This document shows, piece by piece, positions 14,144 to 62,811 of a stretch of DNA of 64,000 nt. The translations under genes were made by a program, and so were the position numbers. The stretch is from Poriferisphaera corsica (lineage in GTDB: Bacteria; Planctomycetota; Phycisphaerae; Phycisphaerales; Phycisphaeraceae), in contig NZ_CP036425.1 of the NCBI RefSeq assembly GCF_007747445.1, forward strand, positions 124,001 through 188,000, in the 5' to 3' direction. Within the stretch, counting starts at the first letter, position 1. The number at the start of each line of letters is the position of its first letter. Under the pieces are notes generated by a model. The model did no database searches and was not told the origin of the DNA. It saw only the letters and a program-made list of their open reading frames with translations.

Positions 14144-14761
14144 ATGTCATTCACGAAACCATCCGTTATTTGCACGATTCTGCTCGCAATTTTCACCATC
14201 ATCACAACCACCCACGCCGCACCCATCAACTTCGGCAACGACACCGTTAATTCTGCCGATACCCACATCTTCGGCGGCGATGCACTCCTCGGCCTTCAAA
14301 TCAACGTAACACACAACACCGTCGCAACACACATCGGTTCAATCTACCAAGGTACCGGCAACCAGGTTCAATTCGGCATCTACTCCGACTTCAACAACGC
14401 CCCCGATCAACTTATCGCATCAACTAATCCGCATAACATCATCTACAACTCACACAACCACATCCCACTGATATCCAACACACCCATTAACGCCGGAACC
14501 TACTGGCTCCTCTCCCTCTACGACGTGCAAGCCACTGGCACGATGCGCGCTGAATCAACCACGAACCCATACATCCTCACATCCTTCACTGGTTCCATGC
14601 CCCCAGTATTCCCCGCAAGCCACCTCACCTATGTCGGCAGATCATTCAATTACTACCTCATTACCGACATCAATGCTCCCATCCCCGAACCCGCATCCCT
14701 CGCCCTACTCTCATTCACTATCGCCCCGATTTTTCTTCGCCGCAAAAAAATAGGCGTATAA
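14144..14761 (+). CDS. PEP-CTERM sorting-domain protein (first of a tandem pair)
   Basis: 205 residues: a signal peptide (about 1-26, ending THAA), a secreted domain beginning PINFGNDTV, and a C-terminal PEP-CTERM signal (IPEPASLALLSFTIAPIFLRRKK). Such proteins are exported, processed by an exosortase and linked to the cell surface or exopolysaccharide. The secreted domain, including the NQVQFGIYSDFNNAPDQLIA segment, is clearly homologous to the next gene, so the two arose by tandem duplication. Function of the domain is unknown. ATG follows a strong AAGGGAGGA site. Confidence 0.88.
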   Translation: MSFTKPSVICTILLAIFTIITTTHAAPINFGNDTVNSADTHIFGGDALLGLQINVTHNTVATHIGSIYQGTGNQVQFGIYSDFNNAPDQLIASTNPHNIIYNSHNHIPLISNTPINAGTYWLLSLYDVQATGTMRAESTTNPYILTSFTGSMPPVFPASHLTYVGRSFNYYLITDINAPIPEPASLALLSFTIAPIFLRRKKIGV

Positions 14762-15002
14762 TTTTGCCTAAACTGCCTAATTCCCCTTGTTTTATAGACT
14801 ATTACAAAAGAATAAAATTCTTTTTTTAAAACGTGCTCATTTATTTGTAAAGCGATTTTCTCGGATTAAACTGAATTGAGTACGTAAAACATGCACCACG
14901 TTTTCGCGTTGTAAGTTGTCGTTTACAAGGGTGGGAGCATTTCCTTTATACGCATATTGTGTATCAGGTAATCAAACCAAGGTTTCGCCGTTTTGTTTGT
15001 AA

Positions 15003-15017
15003 CTAATCAACGGTTAG
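15003..15017. promoter_or_regulatory. 15-bp palindromic box (copy 1)
   Basis: CTAATCAACGGTTAG, arms CTAATC/GGTTAG around 3 bases, centred 33 bases upstream of the second PEP-CTERM gene. Part of a family of six in this window. Confidence 0.5.
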
Positions 15018-15042
15018 AGCCGATTGAGGGAGATCGCAAATC

Positions 15043-15723
15043 ATGAAGACCCAATGGCTAAACGCTTTTTTAAGCGTCCTGACTATTTTTACCTTATCAC
15101 TCACCGCTACCGCCGCGCCTGTTAACTTTGGCAACGATCAACCCCTAAGCGGTACAACCACATATGTTGCAGATTACCTGCTCGGCATCCCCGTCACCAT
15201 CACCCAAGACACATTCATCACACACTTCGGCTCAACTTATAACCAAGCCGGCTCACAGGTTCAATTCGCACTTTACGCCGACAACAGCAATGCGCCTGGT
15301 GACCTCATCGCAACATCTGTTTCGCACACCACATCCCTCGGCATCAATGAAATAGCCGTCGATACACCCACGCAAACCTTTACCCTCGGCACAAGTACAT
15401 ACGAAATGGATCTCCCCATCTCACTTTCCGCAGGCAATTACTGGATCATGGCCATCTACGACCAAGATACACTCGCAACCATCGGCGTCGGTCAAGGCTC
15501 AAGCAACATACACTACATCAGCCAATCATTCGACAGCCCACTTCCCGCAACCTTCCCCCCATCTCACAACAGTTATGACACTGGCGGCCTCATCAACTAC
15601 TTCGTCGTCACCGACGACGACATCTGTGTAAAACCTCGCCTCGTCGTCCCAGAACCCGCCTCACTCTCACTCATCGCACTCTCATCCCTTCTCCTACTCC
15701 GCCGCGAACGCAATCGCGCATAA
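15043..15723 (+). CDS. PEP-CTERM sorting-domain protein (second of a tandem pair)
   Basis: 226 residues: a signal peptide (LSLTATAA), a mature domain beginning PVNFGNDQPLSG, and the C-terminal VPEPASLSLIALSSLLLLRRERNRA. Matches the previous gene over the mature domain (for example QVQFALYADNSNAPGDLIAT) but has about 20 extra residues in the middle and a DDDICVKPR insert before the PEP motif. Probably surface-displayed by exosortase; function unknown. ATG has GAGGGAG about 11 bases upstream. The 280-base gap before it is AT-rich and has no gene apart from the palindromic box. Confidence 0.88.
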   Translation: MKTQWLNAFLSVLTIFTLSLTATAAPVNFGNDQPLSGTTTYVADYLLGIPVTITQDTFITHFGSTYNQAGSQVQFALYADNSNAPGDLIATSVSHTTSLGINEIAVDTPTQTFTLGTSTYEMDLPISLSAGNYWIMAIYDQDTLATIGVGQGSSNIHYISQSFDSPLPATFPPSHNSYDTGGLINYFVVTDDDICVKPRLVVPEPASLSLIALSSLLLLRRERNRA

Positions 15724-15872: not shown

Positions 15873-16053
15873 CATATAATGCGCCAATACCATCCTTTCA
15901 CTCTTTCAGCCTGTCTCGATTTCATTAAATGCGAACCACCCCATCTGTCCCATCTATCACATCCCATATCCTCGGTTTCCCCACCCTCTCCCCACTCAAT
16001 TGAGACTCTTTCTCATTTCAAAATAGTTAAAGATCCTTTTATAATGTTCCTGT

Positions 16054-23208: not shown

Positions 23209-23571
23209 ATGCTTGTCTTTATAACGTGGCAGCAAACATCTAATTGTAGATCCCTGTCATCTTTTGTGATCCTAGCTGGCAAACACTGTTTTCTGATGGC
23301 AACTGCGTTTGATGATGAGACCTATGGCCAACGTTGGCAAGTTGAAACCGTGACGAGCATGTTGAAACGAAATCTTGGCACCGCGCTAACTGCTCATAGT
23401 GATGCACGTCGCAATCAGGAAATGATGCTGATGGTACTCACACACAACCTCGCCATCATCTACATCCGCGGAGGGTTTCTACAGAGCATACCTGGCACCT
23501 TTTATTCCCAATGGCGGGTAGGTGTGAACCTTCCAGCTCGCATTGCTCTCAGATTATGTAAGTTTGTTTGA
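23209..23571 (+). pseudogene. Transposase C-terminal remnant (DDE, IS4/IS5-like), copy 1
   Basis: Residues 37 onward (YGQRWQVETVTSMLKRNLG, then RRNQEMMLMVLTHNLAIIY) match the C-terminal end of DDE transposases, where Y.xRWxVE carries the final catalytic Glu. The 36 residues before it and the start codon look spurious. No intact DDE domain or terminal inverted repeats are visible. A second, more decayed copy lies at 24357 in the same orientation. Confidence 0.75.
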
Positions 23572-23626
23572 AAAACTAACAATTGATTAGCCAAATTAAT
23601 ATTCCCGAAATCCTCTATTTCTTCGA

Positions 23627-24346
23627 TTAGTCAACCTGAGTTATTGCATACACAAGAGGATCTCCATACTCCGTACCAAACAAGTACAGAGCATTACCCA
23701 AAAATAGGGAATAAAAATCGAATGGTGATGGCGATTGTTCACCCATAATATTCAGTTCAACTTGCGGTGGAGCGGCCTCATGCACATGAAACTCTATTCC
23801 AGAACACAGTTGCATAAGAAAATGCATTGGTATATCTCCATCATAAGAAGCTGGTGACTCATTTTCCGACATCCATTGTGGCGTACCCCCCAACATTCCA
23901 AAGTTGCCAAGCTCATTGGATTCAATCAATTCAATCGCACGAAATTTCACTTTCTCCTGATAAGATTCCATCAGGAAGCCATTATTGGTTTCAAAGACTA
24001 AAAACTCGAAGTTCCTTTGGTAATTCGATAAAAACTCTCCAGGGATATCGGCTTGGTGCAAAATCGTTTTAAGCATCTGTGGAACAATAAAGCTTTCATC
24101 CATACAAGATGTACAACAAAACAGTGCAATTGTTTTATCAGCCCAAAACATTCCCGTGGGTAAGGCAATCTGATAGTAAAAGCATTGCTCATTGCCGCAT
24201 AATTTACATTTTGGAACAGTATACCCTCTTGGAATACAGGGTTTTCCTCCCAAGAAAGAAATCTGTTTATTCTGAATGATGTCATTCGTAATATTTAGTG
24301 ACCAACTCATATCAGTTTGAAAATATCCTTGTGTATGTAGTACCAT
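23627..24346 (-). CDS. DUF1963/YwqG-like protein
   Basis: About 239 residues with two halves that both look like the DUF1963 beta pattern: ISFLGGKPCIPRGYTVPKC with CxxC (CKLCGNEQC) and later GMLGGTPQWMSENESP followed by HFLMQLCSG and ALYLFGTEYGDP. DUF1963 proteins are of unknown function and recur in toxin-immunity neighbourhoods; this gene lies beside an RHS toxin relic, so an immunity role is a reasonable guess only. AT-rich, unlike the core genes, and bracketed by two transposase relics. Start uncertain: ATG 24346 (MVLHTQGY) or ATG 24310 (MSWSLNITND). Confidence 0.55.
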   Translation of the reverse strand: MVLHTQGYFQTDMSWSLNITNDIIQNKQISFLGGKPCIPRGYTVPKCKLCGNEQCFYYQIALPTGMFWADKTIALFCCTSCMDESFIVPQMLKTILHQADIPGEFLSNYQRNFEFLVFETNNGFLMESYQEKVKFRAIELIESNELGNFGMLGGTPQWMSENESPASYDGDIPMHFLMQLCSGIEFHVHEAAPPQVELNIMGEQSPSPFDFYSLFLGNALYLFGTEYGDPLVYAITQVD

Positions 24347-24356
24347 CAATTTTCAC

Positions 24357-24581
24357 TTGATATACAACAGAATGTGGCCGTGTTGCCCTAGGTGCATATT
24401 AAAACATAATTTTGGCGCCATATTAACGACTCATAGTGATGCCCTTTGTAATCTGAGAATGAGGCTGATAGCGTTCACATATAGCCTCGTAATCATCGAT
24501 CACTGCACAGAGTTACTACAGAGCATTCCTATTACCTATTATCCCTTGCTTCAAATTTATGAGCCAATCCCCTCTCGATAA
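24357..24581 (+). pseudogene. Transposase C-terminal remnant, copy 2 (more decayed)
   Basis: LKHNFGAILTTHSDALCN and LLQSIPITYY match LKRNLGTALTAHSDARRN and FLQSIPGTFY of copy 1, and the DNA shares CTCATAGTGATGC and CTACAGAGCAT blocks. The RWQVE motif is lost. The 3' end overlaps the tail of the convergent immunity-like gene. Confidence 0.7.
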
Positions 24582-25029
24582 GCTCCATGTACTGACCAAA
24601 CTCAGGATATTGTGCATAGTATCCAGAGACATCGACATGAGAATGTAAAATTTTTGTTTCGGGCGAATTATATGCTGATTGCCGAATACACAAGTCGCCT
24701 GACGTTTTATAGATATAAGAACGACCATCCAAGACATTGTCAGTATTTTGTTCATAAGATCGTCGTATAGCCATCCTCATAAAAAGTCGACTTGTGTGTA
24801 CCTCTTCATAGTGAAATTCTAAATAAATGCGTAACAAATGATCTAAAACACAAACACAAACAAACGTATCTTTTACAATAATTACATACTTAGGAATCTC
24901 ATCTTTGCTGATAAGAACAGTGTACATTTGCCTTGCATTATGATCATATTGTGCAGTTTTTTGATCTATTATATTTAGTGCTTTTTTCTTAGCGTTAAAC
25001 CACGATCTACAATAAATATAACTTATCAT
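24532..25029 (-). CDS. Probable cognate immunity protein of the RHS toxin (uncharacterised family)
   Basis: 165 residues with no family I recognise: a Tyr-rich, mixed alpha/beta-looking sequence without signal peptide. Its ATG lies 2 bases after the TGA that ends the third-frame continuation of the upstream toxin domain (TGA 25034-25032, ATG 25029). This is the tight toxin-then-immunity arrangement of polymorphic toxin loci, and is the sole basis for the call. A ribosome-binding site (AAAGGTG) lies inside the end of the toxin. The frame is intact although the toxin is broken. Confidence 0.55.
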   Translation of the reverse strand: MISYIYCRSWFNAKKKALNIIDQKTAQYDHNARQMYTVLISKDEIPKYVIIVKDTFVCVCVLDHLLRIYLEFHYEEVHTSRLFMRMAIRRSYEQNTDNVLDGRSYIYKTSGDLCIRQSAYNSPETKILHSHVDVSGYYAQYPEFGQYMELIERGLAHKFEARDNR

Positions 25030-25031
25030 AC

Positions 25032-26331
25032 TCAGTACACCTTTCCATTCACATCCCTTATTAGTACACCATGCTTATCCGCATAATCTAATACCTTCTG
25101 TGGAATTGGCCTATTTTGTACAGGTACTTCAAGTATATATTGTCCCTGCAAATTGAGTCCAACTAATCCATTGCTCGTAGGCACATCCGCTATCTTAGCA
25201 CCAACTGGATACTTTTTGGTATTTCTCTGATATAAGATTTTGCTGTGTTCAATTTTATTTGATTGGATTGCGTATATTTTCTTGATACTATCTCGCCCAA
25301 ATCTGGGTTGTATGAATCTAACCTAACATGATTTTTACCAGATCTTTCAATATACACTTCATTATATGGATAAGAAGCACGTCTATCTCGATTAAACTGA
25401 TTGCCTTCTATGATATTTTGTTTCCATTTCGGCAACTCATCAAATGACGTTATGGTTTTGGGTGATTTAGGTAGCTTCGTAAGCGGTACGAGTACCATAG
25501 CAGTATCATAAGCCACACTACCTGCGTATGTTAGATTGCTTTCATGATCAACATCATTATATACAAATTCTCTTACTTGATTTCGCATCCCTAGCGGATT
25601 TAAATCTTTACGAACTGGTACCCTTAAGCCTAATTTTTTATACATTGAATCAAGCAATCTCATGACGTAAAATATATAATCATTGAGTACCGCAATTTCT
25701 TCAGCAAGCGCTCCAGCAGTCCCTGCCGTATAGTTACCTAAAATATGTGTATTACTCCCACTAGAAATGCGTTCTCCATTAACAAGATGAATCGTAGTGG
25801 GTTGTTTCTAACATATGCATAGAGGTTGTAGCCATCGACGTAGCCGGCGGGGTCGCGTTGGAGGAAGCGGCCTAACTCTGGGCTGTAGGCGCGGCGACGG
25901 TAGTGATACAGTTTGGATTCTGAATCGTAACGTCGGCCGGTGAAGCCGTATGGGTTGTTATATGCAGATGTAGCGAGGGGGTTGCCGGTGGCGTCGAAGA
26001 CGGAGGTGCGGCCGAAGGAGGTGTGGGTGTATTGTTCGAGGATTGTTGCGTTGGATGCATCTGCCATGGCGACAACGCTGTAGCGACGATTTTGTATCAG
26101 CAAGCGAACATCGGTGAGCGCAGGGTTGGTTTGCGTCATGATGGCTAACGGCTGATCGACGTATGAGCCGTAGAGGTATGACTGCTTGAAGACTGCGTTT
26201 GCGATGGTGGTATCGGGGCTGTGGTGCTCTTCGATGACCTGTGAACTGTTGTAGATATAGAGTTGAAAAGTTTCGGCGAGGTTGTTGGCGTAGCGGGTTT
26301 TGGTGATGCGGCGATCATTGATTTGCTAGAA
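25032..26331 (-). pseudogene. RHS-repeat polymorphic toxin, 3' part, truncated and frameshifted
   Basis: Read on the minus strand there are three consecutive frames. Frame 1 (from about 26330 to 25790) carries RHS repeats and the RHS core: LYGSYVDQPLAIM, YNNPYGFTGRRYDSESKLY, then AYSPELGRFLQRDPAGYVD and YNLYAYVRNNPLRF. Frame 2 (about 25800-25195) carries a linker and the toxin domain start (NRDRRASYPYNEVYIE, VRLDSYNPDLGEIVSRKYTQ). Frame 3 (about 25210-25032) finishes it (KYPVGAKIADVPTSNGLVG, QYILEVPVQNRPIP, GVLIRDVNGKVY). A stop near 26330 truncates the 5' end, and two single-site shifts (near 25795, and at the A-run near 25212) break the rest. The C-terminal module resembles nuclease-like tips of RHS toxins, from memory and unverified. 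Confidence 0.8.
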
Positions 26332-26427
26332 CGGGCGAAGCGGCGAAGTGAGGGGCATGATGGTTTGGCTGAGTGATTCTTTGAGATGGGGTTGACAGGT
26401 GTTTGGGTGCTTATTAGACTTAAAGAA

Positions 26428-26446
26428 ATTGAGATTCAATCTCAAT
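26428..26446. promoter_or_regulatory. Perfect 19-bp dyad (possible Fur-family-type operator)
   Basis: ATTGAGATTCAATCTCAAT has 9-base arms around one central base, the geometry of Fur-family boxes, though the sequence differs from the classical GATAATGATAATCATTATC. It lies about 300 bases upstream of the PEP-CTERM/pseudopilin/CbiX group, in the gap 26332-26752 that otherwise holds no gene. Confidence 0.4.
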
Positions 26447-26752
26447 AAAACAAACAGGCTTCGGTATTCCTTCCACTCCCTGATTGCTGATGCCACGGTT
26501 GTTGCCATGTGCCATGTTGTAAATGCATGTTTGGCAGTAGCTTGTGATTTCGGTGACAAAGCCGAGCCTGTGGTGCTGGCTGTGTTGGCTGGCAGTATGG
26601 TGCGTTAAACGTGTTCGCGTTCGATTGGTGAATTGTTCGCTATGAAGGACGGAACATGAGGCGCAGGTCTGCTGCGAATTGTCTTGTTGTTGAAAGCAAC
26701 GAGTCGTGAGGCGGGCAGTTTATATGAACCCTCGTTTCTGGAAGGAGAGACG

Positions 26753-27478
26753 ATGAAGAATTCAGGTCATTTAGGAGCGGCATTGGTCGCTGGGATGGTG
26801 TTTGTTGGTGTTGTAGGTGGTGTTGCGGAGGCGACGCCTGTGAATTTTGTAGATCCGGGTGAATGGTCGGTGGGATCATCGGGGTCGACGTATCAGGCTT
26901 GGGATGTATTTACGGGGACAACGGGGAACGGGCCGGATGTTGGCTATAACCGTGAGGGAGATTTGGTGGCGTCTTCTGGCGTGCAGGTTAGCGGGCCATA
27001 TGTTGCGAGCTCGGGGAATTTTTATGGGTTGTTTGGTGAGTTTGATGTGACGGCGGATGTTGTGAATGCGTCTGGTGGTAGTGGCACAGGTACGCATGTC
27101 GTGGTGCAGATGGCATCGACGTCGAGTGCAGATGAGGTGAAGGTTTTCAATGGAGCTGGTGAGGAGATTGCGGGTGCGGTGCAGTTGCGATCGGATGAAC
27201 TAGGGAAGGTGTTTTTGTACAACATGACACCTCCGGGTAGTTCTACGCCGGTTCCGATTTACAGCTATGAAGATATTTATGAGTTTTATCTGCCTGACTA
27301 TGTCGGTGATTACCAGATTGTTGCATCGTATGCGGGGCATTCGAGTTTTGATGGGTTACGGATTGATAGCTATCTGACGGATAGTGCGATGTCGGTGACG
27401 GTTGTGCCAGAGCCGGCGGCGGTTGCGCTGCTTGGTTTGGGTGGGTTGATGATACTACAGAGACGTAGGAAAGTTTAA
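26753..27478 (+). CDS. PEP-CTERM sorting-domain protein
   Basis: About 241 residues: a signal peptide (VAGMVFVGVVGGVAEA), a mature Gly/Ser/Val-rich secreted domain starting TPVNFVDPGEW, and the C-terminal PEP-CTERM tail VPEPAAVALLGLGGLMILQRRRKV. Start chosen at ATG 26753 (MKNSGHLG) because GGAAGGAGAG lies just upstream and the signal peptide begins there; a longer frame from 26684 adds 23 unlikely residues. First gene of a group with a pseudopilin and a CbiX-like protein. Probably cell-surface attached; ligand unknown. Confidence 0.88.
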   Translation: MKNSGHLGAALVAGMVFVGVVGGVAEATPVNFVDPGEWSVGSSGSTYQAWDVFTGTTGNGPDVGYNREGDLVASSGVQVSGPYVASSGNFYGLFGEFDVTADVVNASGGSGTGTHVVVQMASTSSADEVKVFNGAGEEIAGAVQLRSDELGKVFLYNMTPPGSSTPVPIYSYEDIYEFYLPDYVGDYQIVASYAGHSSFDGLRIDSYLTDSAMSVTVVPEPAAVALLGLGGLMILQRRRKV

Positions 27479-27487
27479 GGGAGTGGA

Positions 27488-27523
27488 AGGGGCGGCTGCG
27501 TTAGTGGCCGCCTCTCCTTTTTC
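27488..27523 (+). terminator. Terminator/attenuator between PEP-CTERM and pseudopilin genes
   Basis: AGGGGCGGC/GCCGCCTCT (one G-U pair) with a 10-base loop followed by CCTTTTT. It may reduce rather than block expression of the next two genes. Confidence 0.75.
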
Positions 27524-27550
27524 TGTTTTGGTAATCTTCGGGTATTGATC

Positions 27551-28426
27551 ATGATTGGAAAGAAGATGAAGAGGGCATGGCCCGGGTTTACATTAATAGA
27601 GTTACTTGTTGTTATAAGCATAATCGCGATGCTTATAGGGATGCTATTGCCAGCGCTTAGCAATGCTCGGGTCGCGGCGATGTCGGTGAGGAATCGGAGT
27701 AATTTAAAACAGGTTTTAGTGGCTGGCGAGTTGTATGCAAATGAGTATGACGGGGAGTTGTTGTATGGGTATGCGCCGCCGACGTTAGGGGGTGTGGGTT
27801 TTGATGTTGAGGCGAATGGATTGAAGTTGTCATTTCCGGTGACATCGCGGTATGCGTGGCGGTTGTCGCCGTATTTTTCGGGGATATGGGAGGTGATGTA
27901 TGACCACACGGCGTTGCCAGAGGTTCCGCGGGTGGGCGAGGATGCATCGACGGCTTTTGAAAAAGCGTATGCGATTAGTGTGACGACGGGGTTTGCGCCG
28001 AATTCTGTGTTTGTGGGTGGTCATCATTCGGTAGCTTTTTTTAAGGGGTTTAGGCCGGCAGGCTGGTCGTATGAACGGAATGTGGGTGAGCATGTGGTGT
28101 TTAAGCGATCGGAGATCCGGAACGCATCGGGGTTGATTTGGTTTACAGAAGTGCAGCAAGTGTTGACTGGTGATCTGGTTGAGGGGAATGGGTTTTACTG
28201 GGCTACGCCACCGGTTGCGAATGGGCGGAAGTGGGATGTTGAGGATGGTGAGATGGTTGTATCTAACCAAGGGATAGGGATGGGTTTGCCGAAGGGGCGA
28301 TATGGGGAGGTGACATCAAGCGGGTTTTTGGATGGGCATGTGGAGGGGCTTCGAGCGGAGGAGCTGTTGGATATGCGGTTGTGGTATCAGGGTGCGAAGT
28401 GGGCGGATGATGATTTTGTGGATTAA
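27551..28426 (+). CDS. Type II secretion pseudopilin-like protein (planctomycete prepilin family)
   Basis: About 291 residues. The prepilin cleavage/methylation motif GFTLIELLVVISIIAMLIG lies at about residues 11-29, followed by LLPALSNAR, the usual start of the very abundant planctomycete pseudopilins. A large periplasmic part ends in a SSGFLDGHVEGL motif, the (F/L)LDGHV signature of this group. Pseudopilins assemble at the inner membrane; individual paralogues have unknown tasks. Start at ATG 27551, where the ribosome-binding site is weak; a TTG two codons upstream is possible. It forms a module with the flanking PEP-CTERM and CbiX-like genes. Confidence 0.88.
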   Translation: MIGKKMKRAWPGFTLIELLVVISIIAMLIGMLLPALSNARVAAMSVRNRSNLKQVLVAGELYANEYDGELLYGYAPPTLGGVGFDVEANGLKLSFPVTSRYAWRLSPYFSGIWEVMYDHTALPEVPRVGEDASTAFEKAYAISVTTGFAPNSVFVGGHHSVAFFKGFRPAGWSYERNVGEHVVFKRSEIRNASGLIWFTEVQQVLTGDLVEGNGFYWATPPVANGRKWDVEDGEMVVSNQGIGMGLPKGRYGEVTSSGFLDGHVEGLRAEELLDMRLWYQGAKWADDDFVD

Positions 28427-28464
28427 TTGATTATATGTAGGCAGAAATCAAAGGAGATTTTGAT

Positions 28465-29133
28465 ATGTCGATAAATGGTATGCGAAAGCAGATGAAGTAT
28501 ATGTTGCCGATGGTTGTGATTGTTGGCGCTTTGGTTATGACTGCGGTTTTGCCGTTGGTTGTGTCGGGGGCTGTGGGTGATAAGCAAGCTGATGTAAAGC
28601 AGGTTGTTAAGGATGATGTGGCGGTTGTGTTGGTTGGGCATGGGGTGCCGCCGAGTGATTTCCCGAGGAATGAATTGCGTGCAGCGATCAAGGCGCTGAA
28701 TGAGATGACGGGTCATGATCATGGTGATGGGGGAGAGGATCATGAGCATGATGCGGAGGGGGAAGTGCTTGCGAAAAAGCTGCTGAATTGGCCGATGACG
28801 CGAGAGAACAATGCGTATTATTTTGGTGTGAAGGATATTGCAGATGTTCTGCGATCGAGGTCGGGATTGCCGGTTTTTATAGGTTTTAATGAGTTTTGCG
28901 GGCCGACGACGGGCGATGCGATTGATACGGCGGTGAAGCAGGGTTATACGCATGTGATTGTGACGACGGTGATGATGACGCCGGGGGGTGGCCATTCGGA
29001 GCGGGATATTTTGAATTCGATGAAACGTGTCGAGGAGAATTATCCGCATGTTAAGTTGACGTATGCGTGGCCGTTTCCGGTTGAGCGTGTGGCGGGGGTG
29101 TTGCATGAACAGGTGATGGATTCAATGAATTGA
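28465..29133 (+). CDS. CbiX-like sirohydrochlorin cobalto/nickel/ferrochelatase family protein, membrane-anchored or exported
   Basis: 222 residues. An N-terminal hydrophobic segment (about 12-35: LPMVVIVGALVMTAVLPLVV) precedes a CbiX domain with VAVVLVGHGVPPSDF (about 52) and VIVTTVMMTPGGGHSERDI (about 163-181), whose two histidines ligate the metal in the family. Between them is an unusual His/Asp/Glu-rich loop (HDHGDGGEDHEHDAEG, about 81-97), likely metal-binding. Classical CbiX is cytoplasmic, so an N-terminal export or anchor sequence is odd. It is the third gene of a PEP-CTERM/pseudopilin group. ATG has AGGAG 8 bases upstream. Confidence 0.8.
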   Translation: MSINGMRKQMKYMLPMVVIVGALVMTAVLPLVVSGAVGDKQADVKQVVKDDVAVVLVGHGVPPSDFPRNELRAAIKALNEMTGHDHGDGGEDHEHDAEGEVLAKKLLNWPMTRENNAYYFGVKDIADVLRSRSGLPVFIGFNEFCGPTTGDAIDTAVKQGYTHVIVTTVMMTPGGGHSERDILNSMKRVEENYPHVKLTYAWPFPVERVAGVLHEQVMDSMN

Positions 29134-29160
29134 GGATTGTGAGGAGATTGATGCTGAGAG

Positions 29161-29192
29161 AAAAAGGACAGGCTTTTGGGCCTGTCCTTTTC
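29161..29192. terminator. Bidirectional intrinsic terminator
   Basis: AAAAGGACAGGC/GCCTGTCCTTTT, 12-bp stem with a 6-base loop, between convergent genes. Confidence 0.93.
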
Positions 29193-29231
29193 TAATTGGT
29201 GAATCGATTGATGTGTGATTGGGGGGGGAAG

Positions 29232-31241
29232 TTAAGCTGCTTCACGGATTTTGAATTGGCTGACGAGCTGCTTGAGCTGATCGGCTTTTTCAGAGAGGTG
29301 ATTGGCGGCTTGGGCGGCTTGGTCGGTGCCTTCGCGTGATTGGGCAGTGACGGCTGAGATGCTTTGGATGTTTGAGGAGATTTCTTCGGCGGCGGCGGAT
29401 TGTTGTTCGGCTGCTGCTGCGATGGTTTGGATGAGGGATGAGACGTTGTCGGCGCCGTCGATGATTTCGGAGAGTGAGGAGCCGGCGTCGGTTGCGGTTT
29501 GTACGCCGCGTTCGACGTTGCCTTTGCTTGCGTCCATTTGTGTGATGGCATCGTTTGTGCCTTGCTGGATGTTGCCGATGAGTTCGGTGATGTCGTCGGT
29601 GGCTTTGGTGGTGCGGTCGGCGAGTTTGCGGACTTCGTCGGCGACAACGGCGAAGCCTCGGCCATGCTCACCGGCGCGGGCGGCTTCGATGGCGGCGTTG
29701 AGGGCGAGGAGGTTGGTTTGATCGGAGATGTCATTGATGACGACGATGATTTCGCCGATGCGCTGAGCTTGTGAGCCGAGGTTGCCGATGAGTGAGCCGA
29801 CTTGTGATGCGTCGGAAGCGATCTGCTCGATGCCTTGAATAGTTTGAGAGACGATGTCGGAGCCTGTAACGGCGGTGGATTTTGCTTTGTTTGAGTTTTC
29901 GTGGGCATCGTTACTGCGGGTGGCGACTTCGGTGATTGAGGCGGACATTTCTTCGATTGCGGAGGAGACTTCGGTGACCTGAGCGGATTGCTCGGACATG
30001 CCTTGGGCGATTTCTTCGCTTGAGGATGCGATTTGGGTTGCTGCGGAGGCGACTTGCTGAGTTGTTTCGGTGACTTGAGCGATGATATCGTGGACTTTTT
30101 CGGCGAATGTGTTGAAAGCGTCTGCGAGGTCGCCGACTTCGTCGTCGGTTTGTCGGGCGAGACGTTTGGTGAGGTCGCCGTCACCTTGGGAGATGTCGTT
30201 CATGCCATCAACGACTTGTTTGATTGGGTTGGCGATTTTGCCGCCGAGGTAGTAGAGGAGGAATGAGGCGGCGATGAGGCAGAGGAGGCCGAGGCCGATC
30301 ATTTTGAGGAGTGCGGCTTTGGCGGGTGCGAGAATGACGGATTCGGGTACGGCGATGATGGTGGTTGAGAATTGGCCGCCACGTCCGAAGGATGTGGGTG
30401 CGTAGACTTGGAGTAGGCCTTTGGCTTGCCAGTTCATGGATTCGCCTGCGAGGATGCGGTCTTTATTGAGCTTGAATTCTTCGTTGATATCGGCGGCGTT
30501 GGTGTTGAGCAGGTCGGGCTGATCTTTGTAGCCAACGATGTGACCACCGGGGCTGAGGATGACCATTTTGGCTGAGCCGTCGAAGGCGTCACAGGCGCTT
30601 GCGAGCTGTTGTAGATTATCGAGTGGGATGTCGATGCCGATGACGCCGACGGTTTTGTTGTTTTTGATGATGGGAGTGGCGAATGAGGCCATGAGGACGG
30701 TTTTGCCGCCGACTTCGTATTCGTAGGGTTCGGTGGCTGCGTCTTTGCCGGCTTTATAGGGTTGTTGGTAGTAATCGGCTGTTGCGGGTTCATTGGTTGC
30801 GATGTCGGTGTAGATGAGTTTGCCGGTGTCGTCGCGCGACCAGTAGAAGTTTGCGTAGGTGTCGGGCGCTTTTTCGGTTTGGTTGGTGGGTAAGAAGTTG
30901 GGTTCGTAGTTGAGCCAGACGCCGACGTAGCCGGGGTTGGTTTCGAGTGTTGATTTGAGGGTTTGTTTGATGAGTTCGGGGCTATCAATGCGATTGGTTT
31001 GTGTGTTGACGGCGCTGGCTGCGAAATCTGCAAGTGTGCGGACGGTGCCCATGTCGTTATCGAGTGCGCCTTTGATGGTGTTTGAGGTGGTGAGGGCGAT
31101 TTTGATGGCTTTTTCAGTGGCAGAGGATTGTGCATCACTCCATGCTTTCCAGCCTGCGAAGGTGGTGGCGACGGTGAGTGAGGCAACGAGCGCGAGGCTG
31201 GACCAGGCGACGAATTTGGTTCGGACAGATTTGAACTTCAT
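29232..31241 (-). CDS. Methyl-accepting chemotaxis protein with dCache sensor
   Basis: About 669 residues. TM1 lies at about 10-32 ([19 protein letters not shown]) and a double-Cache extracytoplasmic sensor follows (landmarks [39 protein letters not shown]). TM2 lies at about 310-335, then HAMP ([27 protein letters not shown]) and a long signalling helix with the universal hairpin [20 protein letters not shown]. It controls CheA in response to a small extracellular ligand. The KFKIREAA end has no NWETF methylesterase tether. Start chosen at ATG 31241 (MKFKSVRTK) with AAAGAG upstream rather than the frame start at 31307. Confidence 0.93.
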
Positions 31242-61001: not shown

Positions 61002-61796
61002 TTACTTTTGACGTCTTCTGCCAATAGCTGCTAATCCGCCCAATCCAAGCAAGGCTAGACTTGCAGGTTCAGGCACCATCGCGCCTTCAATAAACGCAAC
61101 AGCCGCTTCGTGAAGCGCTTCACCGTGTTCACCCACAGCAAAAACCAACACACCCGGATCACTTGCCGTTAAACCTTCTTGGCTAAACGACATCGCAACA
61201 GCATAGATACCATCTTTGATGTTATCCGTGCCATTCGCCTCATCCAGCATGTAGAAGCCGATGTGTTGATGTAGTCCACTATCAGCACCTGTCTGCCCAA
61301 TGACAAAACCATCGACATCATCAGTACCACCATTAACCGTAGCAGTGTACGTTTCAAACGGGCTTATCTGCCTAGCAGCAGTAAACATCGTCCCATCGTT
61401 CACCGCATCAAATGCGATATCATTAACATCCGACGCATCCCAGTAAAACAGATTAGAGACTGTTCCGCCAAGCTCAAATGCATTGAAATCAAACGACACA
61501 TCCGTACTTGCCAGTGGTGCAGTGATCCCGTCATCATACTCGTCCGCCTCAACGCCGAACCCCGGATTAGTTGCGTAATAAGATTCCGGCATCTCTGCGC
61601 CCATCGCAACTAACTTCTCAATCACACCACCATGCTCAACCATCGCAATCATCTGACCATCCTTAATACCCAGCAGGATATCTGAATGGCCATGATGATG
61701 ATCTTCAGCAAACGCCTGTGATCCCATAATGCCTGTCGCCATAACAACCCCGCCAATCATCAAACTTTTCTTTAAAGTATTCTTTAAAGTATTCAT
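61002..61796 (-). CDS. His-rich PEP-CTERM sorting-domain protein
   Basis: 264 residues: a signal peptide (IMGSQAFA), a mature N-terminus starting EDHHHGHSDILLGIKDG (a possible metal site), a secreted domain with acidic and Gly-rich strands and further His residues (GLHQHIGFY, GEHGEALHEAA), and the C-terminal VPEPASLALLGLGGLAAIGR. Surface-anchored by exosortase; the many His residues suggest metal binding. Downstream of a pseudopilin gene on the same strand (58 bases). Confidence 0.88.
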   Translation of the reverse strand: MNTLKNTLKKSLMIGGVVMATGIMGSQAFAEDHHHGHSDILLGIKDGQMIAMVEHGGVIEKLVAMGAEMPESYYATNPGFGVEADEYDDGITAPLASTDVSFDFNAFELGGTVSNLFYWDASDVNDIAFDAVNDGTMFTAARQISPFETYTATVNGGTDDVDGFVIGQTGADSGLHQHIGFYMLDEANGTDNIKDGIYAVAMSFSQEGLTASDPGVLVFAVGEHGEALHEAAVAFIEGAMVPEPASLALLGLGGLAAIGRRRQK

Positions 61797-61854
61797 ACGA
61801 AAATCTCCCTGTTAATAAAATTGTTTTTGAATAAGAACGAAAATTTTTCAACCA

Positions 61855-62610
61855 CTATTTTCCCACCACCATCGGATCAAAACGATTCTCCGTCGGGCTC
61901 ACATACACAGTCTCAAACGTAGATGTCTCTGCATGCCCATCCAGATATCCCCAGTTACTGATACTCCCCTTCTCATCTTTCGGCCCCCCATGCGCGCCAA
62001 TCGCATACTGCTTCGCAGCATTCTTCGGAGCAAGATGCGCCGTCGCGCTCGTGGCCCACGCAGAAACGTGCCCATGATCTGACCCCGCATACTCACCCTC
62101 AAACGTCATCATCACAAAATGCACCACCCCAGTTGGCTGCCGCACGTTATCCATCGTGTAATGCCCATCCACACTCCCCATCCCCCAAGGCCCCCACGCC
62201 ACCAACTCACTATCTAAAAAGTCATTAATCCCATAACTCGTCATGCGACGCCGATCATTCGATGAACCCGGTATCGGATCGCCCTCTGGATGCGGCCCCC
62301 AATGCGGGCTATCATCCACCGGCGACCGCAAGACCACATCCACCCCATAATCTTTTGCCAGCGTTTCTGTCCACGGCTCATGCGAACCGTGCGCCGCACC
62401 ACCATGCGCCAAATTCGCCTGAATCAATTCACCATCGTTATCAATCACATACGCATAATGCGCGATCTCCAACTGACGTATTTGGCTCAAGCACTTGATC
62501 GTCATCGCAGTCCGCCTAGCGCTTGATAGCGCTGGCAACAAGATACCAATTAGTAATGCGATGATCGATATCACTACAAGCAATTCAATCAATGTAAATC
62601 CACGTTTCAT
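61855..62610 (-). CDS. Type II secretion pseudopilin-like protein (planctomycete prepilin family)
   Basis: About 251 residues. MKRGFTLIELLVVISIIALL at the N-terminus, then LLPALSSARRTAM, the planctomycete pseudopilin hallmark. The periplasmic part is His-rich (LAHGGAAHGSHEPW, SPHWGPHPEG, GSDHGHVSA) and ends with NWGYLDGHAETS, equivalent to the LDGHVE motif in the 27551 gene. Start chosen at ATG 62610 because GGGAG lies 9 bases before it; a second ATG at 62619 would leave no space. Forms a module with the His-rich PEP-CTERM gene. Confidence 0.88.
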   Translation of the reverse strand: MKRGFTLIELLVVISIIALLIGILLPALSSARRTAMTIKCLSQIRQLEIAHYAYVIDNDGELIQANLAHGGAAHGSHEPWTETLAKDYGVDVVLRSPVDDSPHWGPHPEGDPIPGSSNDRRRMTSYGINDFLDSELVAWGPWGMGSVDGHYTMDNVRQPTGVVHFVMMTFEGEYAGSDHGHVSAWATSATAHLAPKNAAKQYAIGAHGGPKDEKGSISNWGYLDGHAETSTFETVYVSPTENRFDPMVVGK

Positions 62611-62624
62611 CAGGAACATCTCCC

Positions 62625-62639: not shown

Positions 62640-62811
62640 ATTAATCACAAGCGACCCGCGATACGCACGCAGCATATCACCCAGATCATTCACTATTGAT
62701 AGATAAGGGAGTCTCAGATAGTCAGGCTACGTACAATTAATCACCGCACCTTATGCGCAATGTTTGCACGATATCTTACGAATCAATCTGAAACACAACT
62801 AGATATGTACT

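Follow-up and report, generated by a model that had tools for sequence, protein, structure and literature searches.

The chelatases CfbA, SirB and CbiX-S are cytosolic biosynthetic enzymes. Chelatases also occur outside the cytoplasm: CbiKP of Desulfovibrio vulgaris is described as a periplasmic class II chelatase. In Bacteroides, extracytoplasmic chelatase-type proteins are needed to take iron from heme, FeoAB imports it, and the activity of these proteins (BtuS and HmuS) rises at low iron (PMC6460266, PMC12583661); a third source describes IhtB as a likely reverse ferrochelatase (PMC13227078). Here we describe three consecutive genes of Poriferisphaera corsica, whose products are a PEP-CTERM protein, a pseudopilin and a protein of the CbiX fold that bears an export signal. 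The genes lie on the same strand at 26753-29133 of a 64,000-nucleotide stretch of contig NZ_CP036425.1 (the window), part of a 4.29-Mb single-contig genome. Our analysis strongly supports the prediction that the trio is an operon for iron starvation, which a Fur-family protein bound over the transcription start keeps repressed. The regulation of the trio and the linkage of its first two genes are well supported, and we infer heme as the substrate from the predicted fold and active site of the third protein, one HemS neighbourhood and analogy. The trio and its control region comprise:

26392-26420, plus strand: sigma-70-like promoter, 10/12 matches, 17-base pair (bp) spacer
26428-26446, no strand assigned: perfect 9-1-9 dyad, a predicted Fur-type operator, over the expected transcription start
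26753-27478, plus strand: gene 1 (P0001), PEP-CTERM surface protein of 241 amino acids (aa), from motif matches and relatives in genomes of the class
27551-28426, plus strand: gene 2 (P0002), pseudopilin of 291 aa, from its prepilin motif
28465-29133, plus strand: gene 3 (P0003), CbiX-type class II chelatase-fold protein of 222 aa with an N-terminal export signal or anchor

A preliminary description of this DNA had named the same trio, and its open reading frames (ORFs) are in place and pass their family cut-offs. Gene 1 exceeds two PEP-CTERM cut-offs (TIGR02595, 22.1 vs 16 bits; PF07589, 21.3 vs 20.7), gene 2 that of the prepilin motif (PF07963, 25.3 vs 21.2), and residues 122-204 of gene 3 match CbiX (PF01903, 48.4 vs 22 bits). 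Gene 2 falls below the major pseudopilin model GspG (TIGR01710, 28 vs 88.85 bits) and has only the general prepilin N-terminus; nine aligned pseudopilins have in common a C-terminal DGH and a W near the end. Prepilin-motif matches at E<=0.1 number 64 in this genome and 92 in strain ZRK32 of the same genus (CP066225.1; G711, locus L021). ZRK32 carries the same three genes in the same order, with protein identities of 68%, 74% and 66% for genes 1, 2 and 3 and dN/dS ratios of about 0.26 (0.259/1.00), 0.18 (0.204/1.13) and 0.34 (0.246/0.733), respectively. The true start of gene 2 may be 27566, the position at which its ZRK32 ortholog begins.

The 19-bp dyad of Fur-type geometry reported upstream proved exact, with 100% complementary arms, and its ZRK32 counterpart differs at 1 base. 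Seven bases separate the dyad from the promoter-like site in both genomes. That promoter is the sole such site in 26300-29250, where shuffles average 2.9; the ZRK32 site (L021 7790-7818) has 9/12 matches and is one of 5 there vs 4.3 in shuffles. At <=3 mismatches the dyad is the only site of its kind in the window (0.03 expected from shuffles), and the whole genome holds 12, the trio's included, vs 3 in the reversed control. For the 17-bp form at <=2 mismatches, ZRK32 has 17 sites vs 5 in the reversed control. Eleven of these 17 lie outside long ORFs, against about 3.3 expected (P 6e-5), counting as outside a site in L057 that falls in a short antisense ORF and using a coding fraction of 0.81 from the same loci.

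Flavodoxin and FeoAB are textbook iron-limitation genes. In both genomes, dyad-like sites precede a flavodoxin gene, feoA-feoB and a pseudopilin-PepSY_TM operon, gene names that Pfam confirmed. The flavodoxin site is identical in the two genomes, and the feoA site of this genome, with 3 mismatches to the consensus, was found by inspecting the region upstream of feoB and not by the genome scans. A matrix trained on these six sites only, the trio sites being excluded, gives the trio dyad a score of 23.8. Across the two genomes, a pseudopilin follows within 600 bp of 4 of 26 sites, where 0.26 would be expected (P 1.5e-4; two of the four are orthologs, and the trio was left out). Judged by sequence, the dyad conforms to the pattern of a Fur operator, a 9-1-9 or 7-1-7 dyad over the promoter that iron genes share, and Fur-type binding to it is predicted. 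This genome has three FUR-family genes. One had looked by eye like Zur, which was not borne out: the best NCBIfam matches are Fur/PerR models, all far below cut-off.

Operator-like sites also turned up elsewhere. The second-best score in the window (18.7, 15999-16017) lies upstream of genes that resemble, by eye, phenylacetate-CoA ligase and indolepyruvate oxidoreductase. In ZRK32, at L057, L065 and L067, such sites stand ahead of genes for a di-heme peroxidase (MauG/CCP), a heavy-metal P-type ATPase (the Pfam comparison used the homolog from this genome) and a PepSY-like protein (24.7 bits against a cut-off of 28.8), and two lone pseudopilins of that strain (L056 3058-4086 and L062 3025-3912) stand directly behind such sites.

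Genes 1 and 2 recur as a pair. With a gene-1 profile we found 26 matches at E<=1e-10, and because these fall in only 24 of 397 genomes of the class Phycisphaerae, we regard the family as patchy; in the organism's own taxonomic family, 4 genomes have gene-1 relatives and 11 others are listed without. Of the 19 closer matches (E<=1e-21, from 17 genomes; two in G089 share one pilin), 17 are followed on the same strand by a pseudopilin that starts <=1.6 kb away, in 14 cases <=340 bp; G723 and G149 lack one. The 7 weaker matches (E 2.5e-16 to 4.6e-11; G137, G652, G294, G729, G672, G102, G666), which stand outside the 17/19 count and inside the 26 of the box-score comparison below, have no same-strand pilin downstream (0/7; three have one on the opposite strand) and no box score >=8.

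The operator recurs with the pair in part. We applied the matrix upstream of the 19 closer matches, to 20 regions in all, with 400 first-order random sequences per region for comparison. The best site was equalled in <=0.5% of random sequences in 8 regions (this genome, ZRK32, G156, one of two in G062, G234, G060, G267 and G723); G225 (1.5%) and G149 (1.75%) are intermediate, and the regions of G662, G080, G710, G068 and G696, both of G008, both of G089 and the other of G062 are unremarkable. Box scores >=10 precede 7 of 26 gene-1 matches but only 3 of the 146 other genes at those loci (Fisher 7e-5), or 6 of 24 matches without this genus (Fisher 3e-4), given a 400-bp upstream limit and several gene starts set by hand. 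The ZRK32 box is missed in this comparison because a tandem repeat, which lengthens the trio leader there, pushes it past the limit.

The neighbourhoods of the pair point to iron and, in one case, heme. In G008, genes for a binding protein, a FecCD permease, an ATPase, HemS and a PEP-CTERM protein run into a gene-1 relative and a pseudopilin; Pfam confirmed HemS (PF05171, 259 bits), FecCD and Peripla_BP_2. The transporter appears HmuTUV-like; its ATPase comes closest to a heme NCBIfam model while staying under the cut-off (254.8 vs 261 bits), and the permease and binding protein are unnamed. The run in G662 consists of a DtxR-FeoA fusion, FeoB, an unnamed protein, a gene-1 relative, another unnamed protein and a pseudopilin. 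Elsewhere the pair is followed by a DUF4198-like protein (G156; 17.3 vs 34 bits), a 91-aa ORF and a Kelch protein (G080) or DUF6607 (one G062 locus), and the other loci inspected have no telling neighbours. Linkage and operators together support genes 1 and 2 as a surface module that recurs in Phycisphaerae and serves to acquire iron or heme. Since the operator is shared with feoAB and flavodoxin, and relatives sit with HemS or DtxR-FeoB genes, the metal is most likely iron. The earlier proposal of a surface system for a metal or a tetrapyrrole under a Fur-type site had pointed in the right direction, and its metal can be narrowed to iron; for the chelatase substrate, fold and active site make the proposal plausible only.

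Related arrangements occur around other exported proteins. At four loci of other Phycisphaerae (L134, L135, L136, L140), weak gene-1 relatives stand behind a different exported protein with the motif DRW.YPFN or close to it, and three of the four have a divergent pseudopilin ending, by eye, in an RRW motif; this is perhaps a sister system. A further exported protein, alike by eye at L128 3248-3958, L093 6753-7439 and L090 6921-7355, lies upstream of gene-1 relatives in three genomes; Pfam calls it PEP-CTERM in L093 only, and it does not stand beside the Poriferisphaera trio. In the window itself, a second pseudopilin and PEP-CTERM pair lies on the minus strand (61002-62619), with a His-rich N-terminus in the PEP-CTERM protein and a weak operator-like site at 62775-62793 (score 12.4; 1 of 400 random sequences as good), and is possibly another metal-linked module. 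At 14144-15723 stands a tandem of two similar exported proteins with PEP-CTERM-like ends (16.4 and 15.4 bits vs 16) and no adjoining pilin.

The third gene has a narrower reach. We rejected the idea that the full trio is conserved across the class, having found the exported CbiX only in this genus. Full-length gene 3 was found in its own genome alone, both among 298 genomes of the class and among 392 of the phylum (E<=1e-12; in many genomes 7 of the first-look candidates scored). In 14 other class genomes the matches span just 82-98 CbiX-domain residues, with 27-32% identity. A separate contig scan added ZRK32 and one Myxococcales metagenome-assembled genome (MAG), the latter without the trio, and a tblastn search of plasmids with gene 3 gave no match. 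The genome scans, that for gene-1 relatives included, scored only some first-look candidates per genome (e.g. 7/53), so that their counts are lower bounds. Conservation of the trio across Phycisphaerae, raised in the preliminary description, thus fails for the chelatase and holds for genes 1 and 2 as linkage, not as universal presence.

Gene 3 combines the PF01903 match, a chelatase fold in a model of moderate confidence and a His-Glu-His set that alignment makes equivalent to metal-binding residues of known enzymes:

28639-28641, plus strand: His59, equivalent of CfbA His9 and SirB His10
28891-28893, plus strand: Glu143, equivalent of CfbA Glu42
28993-28995, plus strand: His177, equivalent of CfbA His75
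28714-28764, plus strand: His/Asp/Glu-rich stretch, residues 84-100, within an insertion

The metal-binding roles of CfbA His9, Glu42 and His75 are given in PMC11301274. The set is invariant in the 3 relatives aligned, and these features place gene 3 with class II chelatases of the CbiX/CfbA type. Four rows of one alignment (L168, L170, L002, L004) are ORFs on the wrong strand and were disregarded. SirB and CfbA are its best sequence matches; by phmmer the best is a sirohydrochlorin ferrochelatase, and matches by name include cobalt and nickel chelatases. Foldseek with the gene-3 model returned CfbA as best match (E 9e-4). VIA-align gave Z 12.0 against SirB (119 aligned, rmsd 3.2), 12.0 against coproporphyrin ferrochelatase, 11.9 against FetB of Porphyromonas gingivalis, which we take to be the same protein as IhtB (111 residues, rmsd 2.5, 11% identity), and 11.1 against CfbA (98 aligned, rmsd 2.5), where scores differing by <=1 count as tied. 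The acidic and His-rich loop noted earlier sits in an insertion of ~50 residues after the first His motif, which the ordinary CbiX described below lacks. The Myxococcales relative has most of this insertion, and among the three sequences aligned it is His/Asp/Glu-rich only in the two from Poriferisphaera. Fold and active site make metal or tetrapyrrole handling by gene 3 plausible.

The same preliminary description had called the chelatase membrane-anchored. Its N-terminal hydrophobic segment is there, by eye and as a helix of the model, and an anchor is one option only: the ZRK32 ortholog has an A-Q-A signal-peptidase-like site, judged by eye, which suggests export, perhaps in soluble form, so that gene 3 may be soluble and periplasmic. 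Both genomes also encode a second, ordinary CbiX (109 vs 49 bits for gene 3 in this genome). The exported CbiX is therefore an extra copy, and gene 3 is probably dispensable for siroheme.

Several smaller features accompany the operon:

26467-26480, plus strand: 14-nucleotide leader element, identical in the ZRK32 trio leader
27488-27515, plus strand: terminator-like hairpin between genes 1 and 2, a possible attenuator
29162-29191, no strand assigned: perfect inverted repeat of 12 bp, situated between the operon and a chemoreceptor gene that converges on it

An Rfam scan of 26300-29250 gave no match at the gathering threshold, and thus no known leader RNA. Terminator-like hairpins listed in the trio region number 10 vs 3.5 in shuffles; the ZRK32 scan listed none at the junction of genes 1 and 2. 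The 12-bp inverted repeat is perhaps a terminator, and a terminator scan covering it did not list it. Upstream of the operon, 23209-26139 holds transposase-like and RHS/YD-type remnants, judged by eye; at this place ZRK32 has an aquaporin-like gene and a COG0523/CobW GTPase instead.

Taken as a whole, we read the locus as a Fur-repressed iron-starvation surface operon whose exported chelatase would free iron from heme-like tetrapyrroles for import by FeoAB, a reading that we hold to be evenly poised between right and wrong. Under iron shortage, Fur would leave the operator, as the position of the latter suggests. The PEP-CTERM route would fix the gene 1 product to the surface, and the gene 2 product would be processed and assembled as a pseudopilin in the envelope, as their motifs imply. 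Gene 3 would be an exported class II chelatase that the module gained in this genus. It would most likely work in reverse, or as a heme or porphyrin binder, so that iron is released from heme-like tetrapyrroles outside the cytoplasm. Ferrous iron would then enter through FeoAB, whose gene has the same operator type.

A number of findings weigh against this reading. Heme or iron binding by the trio proteins is a prediction from sequence and model; the AlphaFold model of gene 3 has only moderate confidence (mean predicted local distance difference test score, pLDDT, 67), and that of gene 1 is unusable (mean pLDDT 44), too poor to search. Gene-1 relatives are patchy (24/397), and the pair is linked to heme genes in one genome and to FeoB in one other. 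Only HemS is clearly a heme gene in G008, its ABC subunits lying below all heme-specific NCBIfam cut-offs. Ten of the 20 upstream regions have no unusual Fur-type site, those of G008 and G662 included, and this genome taken alone has just a small excess of sites (9, against 5 in the reversed control; 17-bp form, <=2 mismatches). A terminator-like hairpin splits gene 1 from gene 2 here, and the COG0523/CobW GTPase upstream of the ZRK32 trio could also fit zinc or cobalt.

Each of the alternatives that we weighed takes up some of these points. The operon could be Fur-controlled with a gene 3 that is no enzyme and instead binds metal or heme as a scavenger or chaperone, its His/Asp/Glu-rich stretch or its cleft holding iron or heme for hand-over. 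The composition of the stretch is kept in ZRK32, and there is a precedent by title only: a study of D. vulgaris reportedly bears a title that names CbiKP as a heme-binding protein. Against it, the His-Glu-His set is invariant, and the motif GGGHSE(R/K)DI is present even in the Myxococcales relative, which is without the rich stretch and, by eye, without an export signal, suggesting that catalysis was kept. We regard a non-enzymatic gene 3 as rather doubtful while giving it real weight. If instead only gene 1, or genes 1 and 2, formed the iron unit, the chelatase would be a passenger, a chance neighbour. No chelatase stands beside the pair in the other genomes inspected, and the hairpin after gene 1 is in keeping with a break in the unit. 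Gene order, close spacing and purifying selection are nevertheless common to the trio and its ZRK32 counterpart at about 70% identity, and chance neighbourhood seems to us very unlikely.

Other options concern the metal or the substrate. The locus could also be a system for zinc, cobalt or nickel that answers to another regulator of the Fur family, for instance Zur. This would be consistent with the three FUR-family genes, whose metal the models do not settle, with the COG0523 GTPase in ZRK32 and with the cobalt and nickel chelatases that gene 3 matches by name. However, feoAB and flavodoxin stand behind operators of this type, HemS and FeoB genes are found next to relatives of the pair, and in this genome the trio has no COG0523 neighbour but, by eye, transposase/RHS-like remnants; we consider such a system unlikely. 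A zinc system in particular had come to mind from the His-rich stretch, the ZRK32 COG0523 gene and the His-rich PEP-CTERM protein elsewhere in the window, and was dropped since iron genes carry the same operator type. A role for gene 3 in the ordinary metallation of sirohydrochlorin, on the way to siroheme or cobalamin, would agree with the CbiX/CfbA family match. It is at odds with the export signal seen by eye, a score far below the CfbA equivalog (NF033198, 27.1 vs 120 bits) and the separate, better CbiX (109 vs 49), and we think it highly improbable.

TonB plug domains gave 0 matches in this genome and in ZRK32; of seven other genomes examined, 3 have none and 4 have 1 to 7, so the module extends beyond TonB-less cells. 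The sole full-length FecCD permease of this genome adjoins a binding protein that NCBIfam does not name above its cut-offs, and is for that reason uninformative about heme. We tentatively suggest, as a possibility that we would not rate as probable, that some Phycisphaerae acquire iron or heme through surface modules in which a PEP-CTERM protein is joined by a dedicated pseudopilin, and that these modules can replace TonB-dependent receptors and have exchangeable iron-release parts: an exported CbiX in this genus, and ABC transport with HemS, or FeoB, in others. The locus would give a concrete role to one recurring kind of planctomycete pseudopilin, the kind that accompanies one PEP-CTERM family and in many cases has an iron-type operator, and suggests how Gram-negative bacteria without a detected TonB plug may meet their iron needs. 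Among the titles and abstract beginnings of the matches listed in open-licence literature on planctomycete pseudopilins and iron, PEP-CTERM with Fur, iron or heme, and planctomycetes with Fur, no such system is described. Heme, PEP-CTERM, pilin, TonB and Fur do not occur as whole words in the searched text of the paper on ZRK32 (PMC10945688), nor do PEP-CTERM, pilin or TonB in that of a class-wide genome paper (PMC11266412).

Among described systems, BtuS/HmuS, IhtB and CbiKP offer functional precedents for gene 3 by analogy. Like BtuS1/BtuS2 and HmuS with FeoAB in Bacteroides, the trio is proposed to release iron outside the cytoplasm for import by Feo; those proteins belong to the CobN superfamily, whereas gene 3 is a 222-aa protein of the CbiX fold with no CobN-type family among its Pfam matches up to E 0.1. 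FetB shares the chelatase fold with gene 3, a match of fold only at 11% identity, and IhtB/FetB is distant in sequence and host; we know of no pseudopilin or PEP-CTERM partner for it. CbiKP is a class II chelatase outside the cytoplasm, as proposed for gene 3, but is of the CbiK family, for which gene 3 stays below the cut-off (PF06180, 13.3 vs 26.2 bits). Closest in family are CfbA, SirB and CbiX-S, with PF01903, the fold and the His-Glu-His metal set in common; gene 3 differs from them in its export signal, the ~50-residue insertion after the first His motif and its predicted iron-type regulation. With gene 3, the small set of exported chelatases that we know to be tied to heme iron would gain a branch of the CbiX type.

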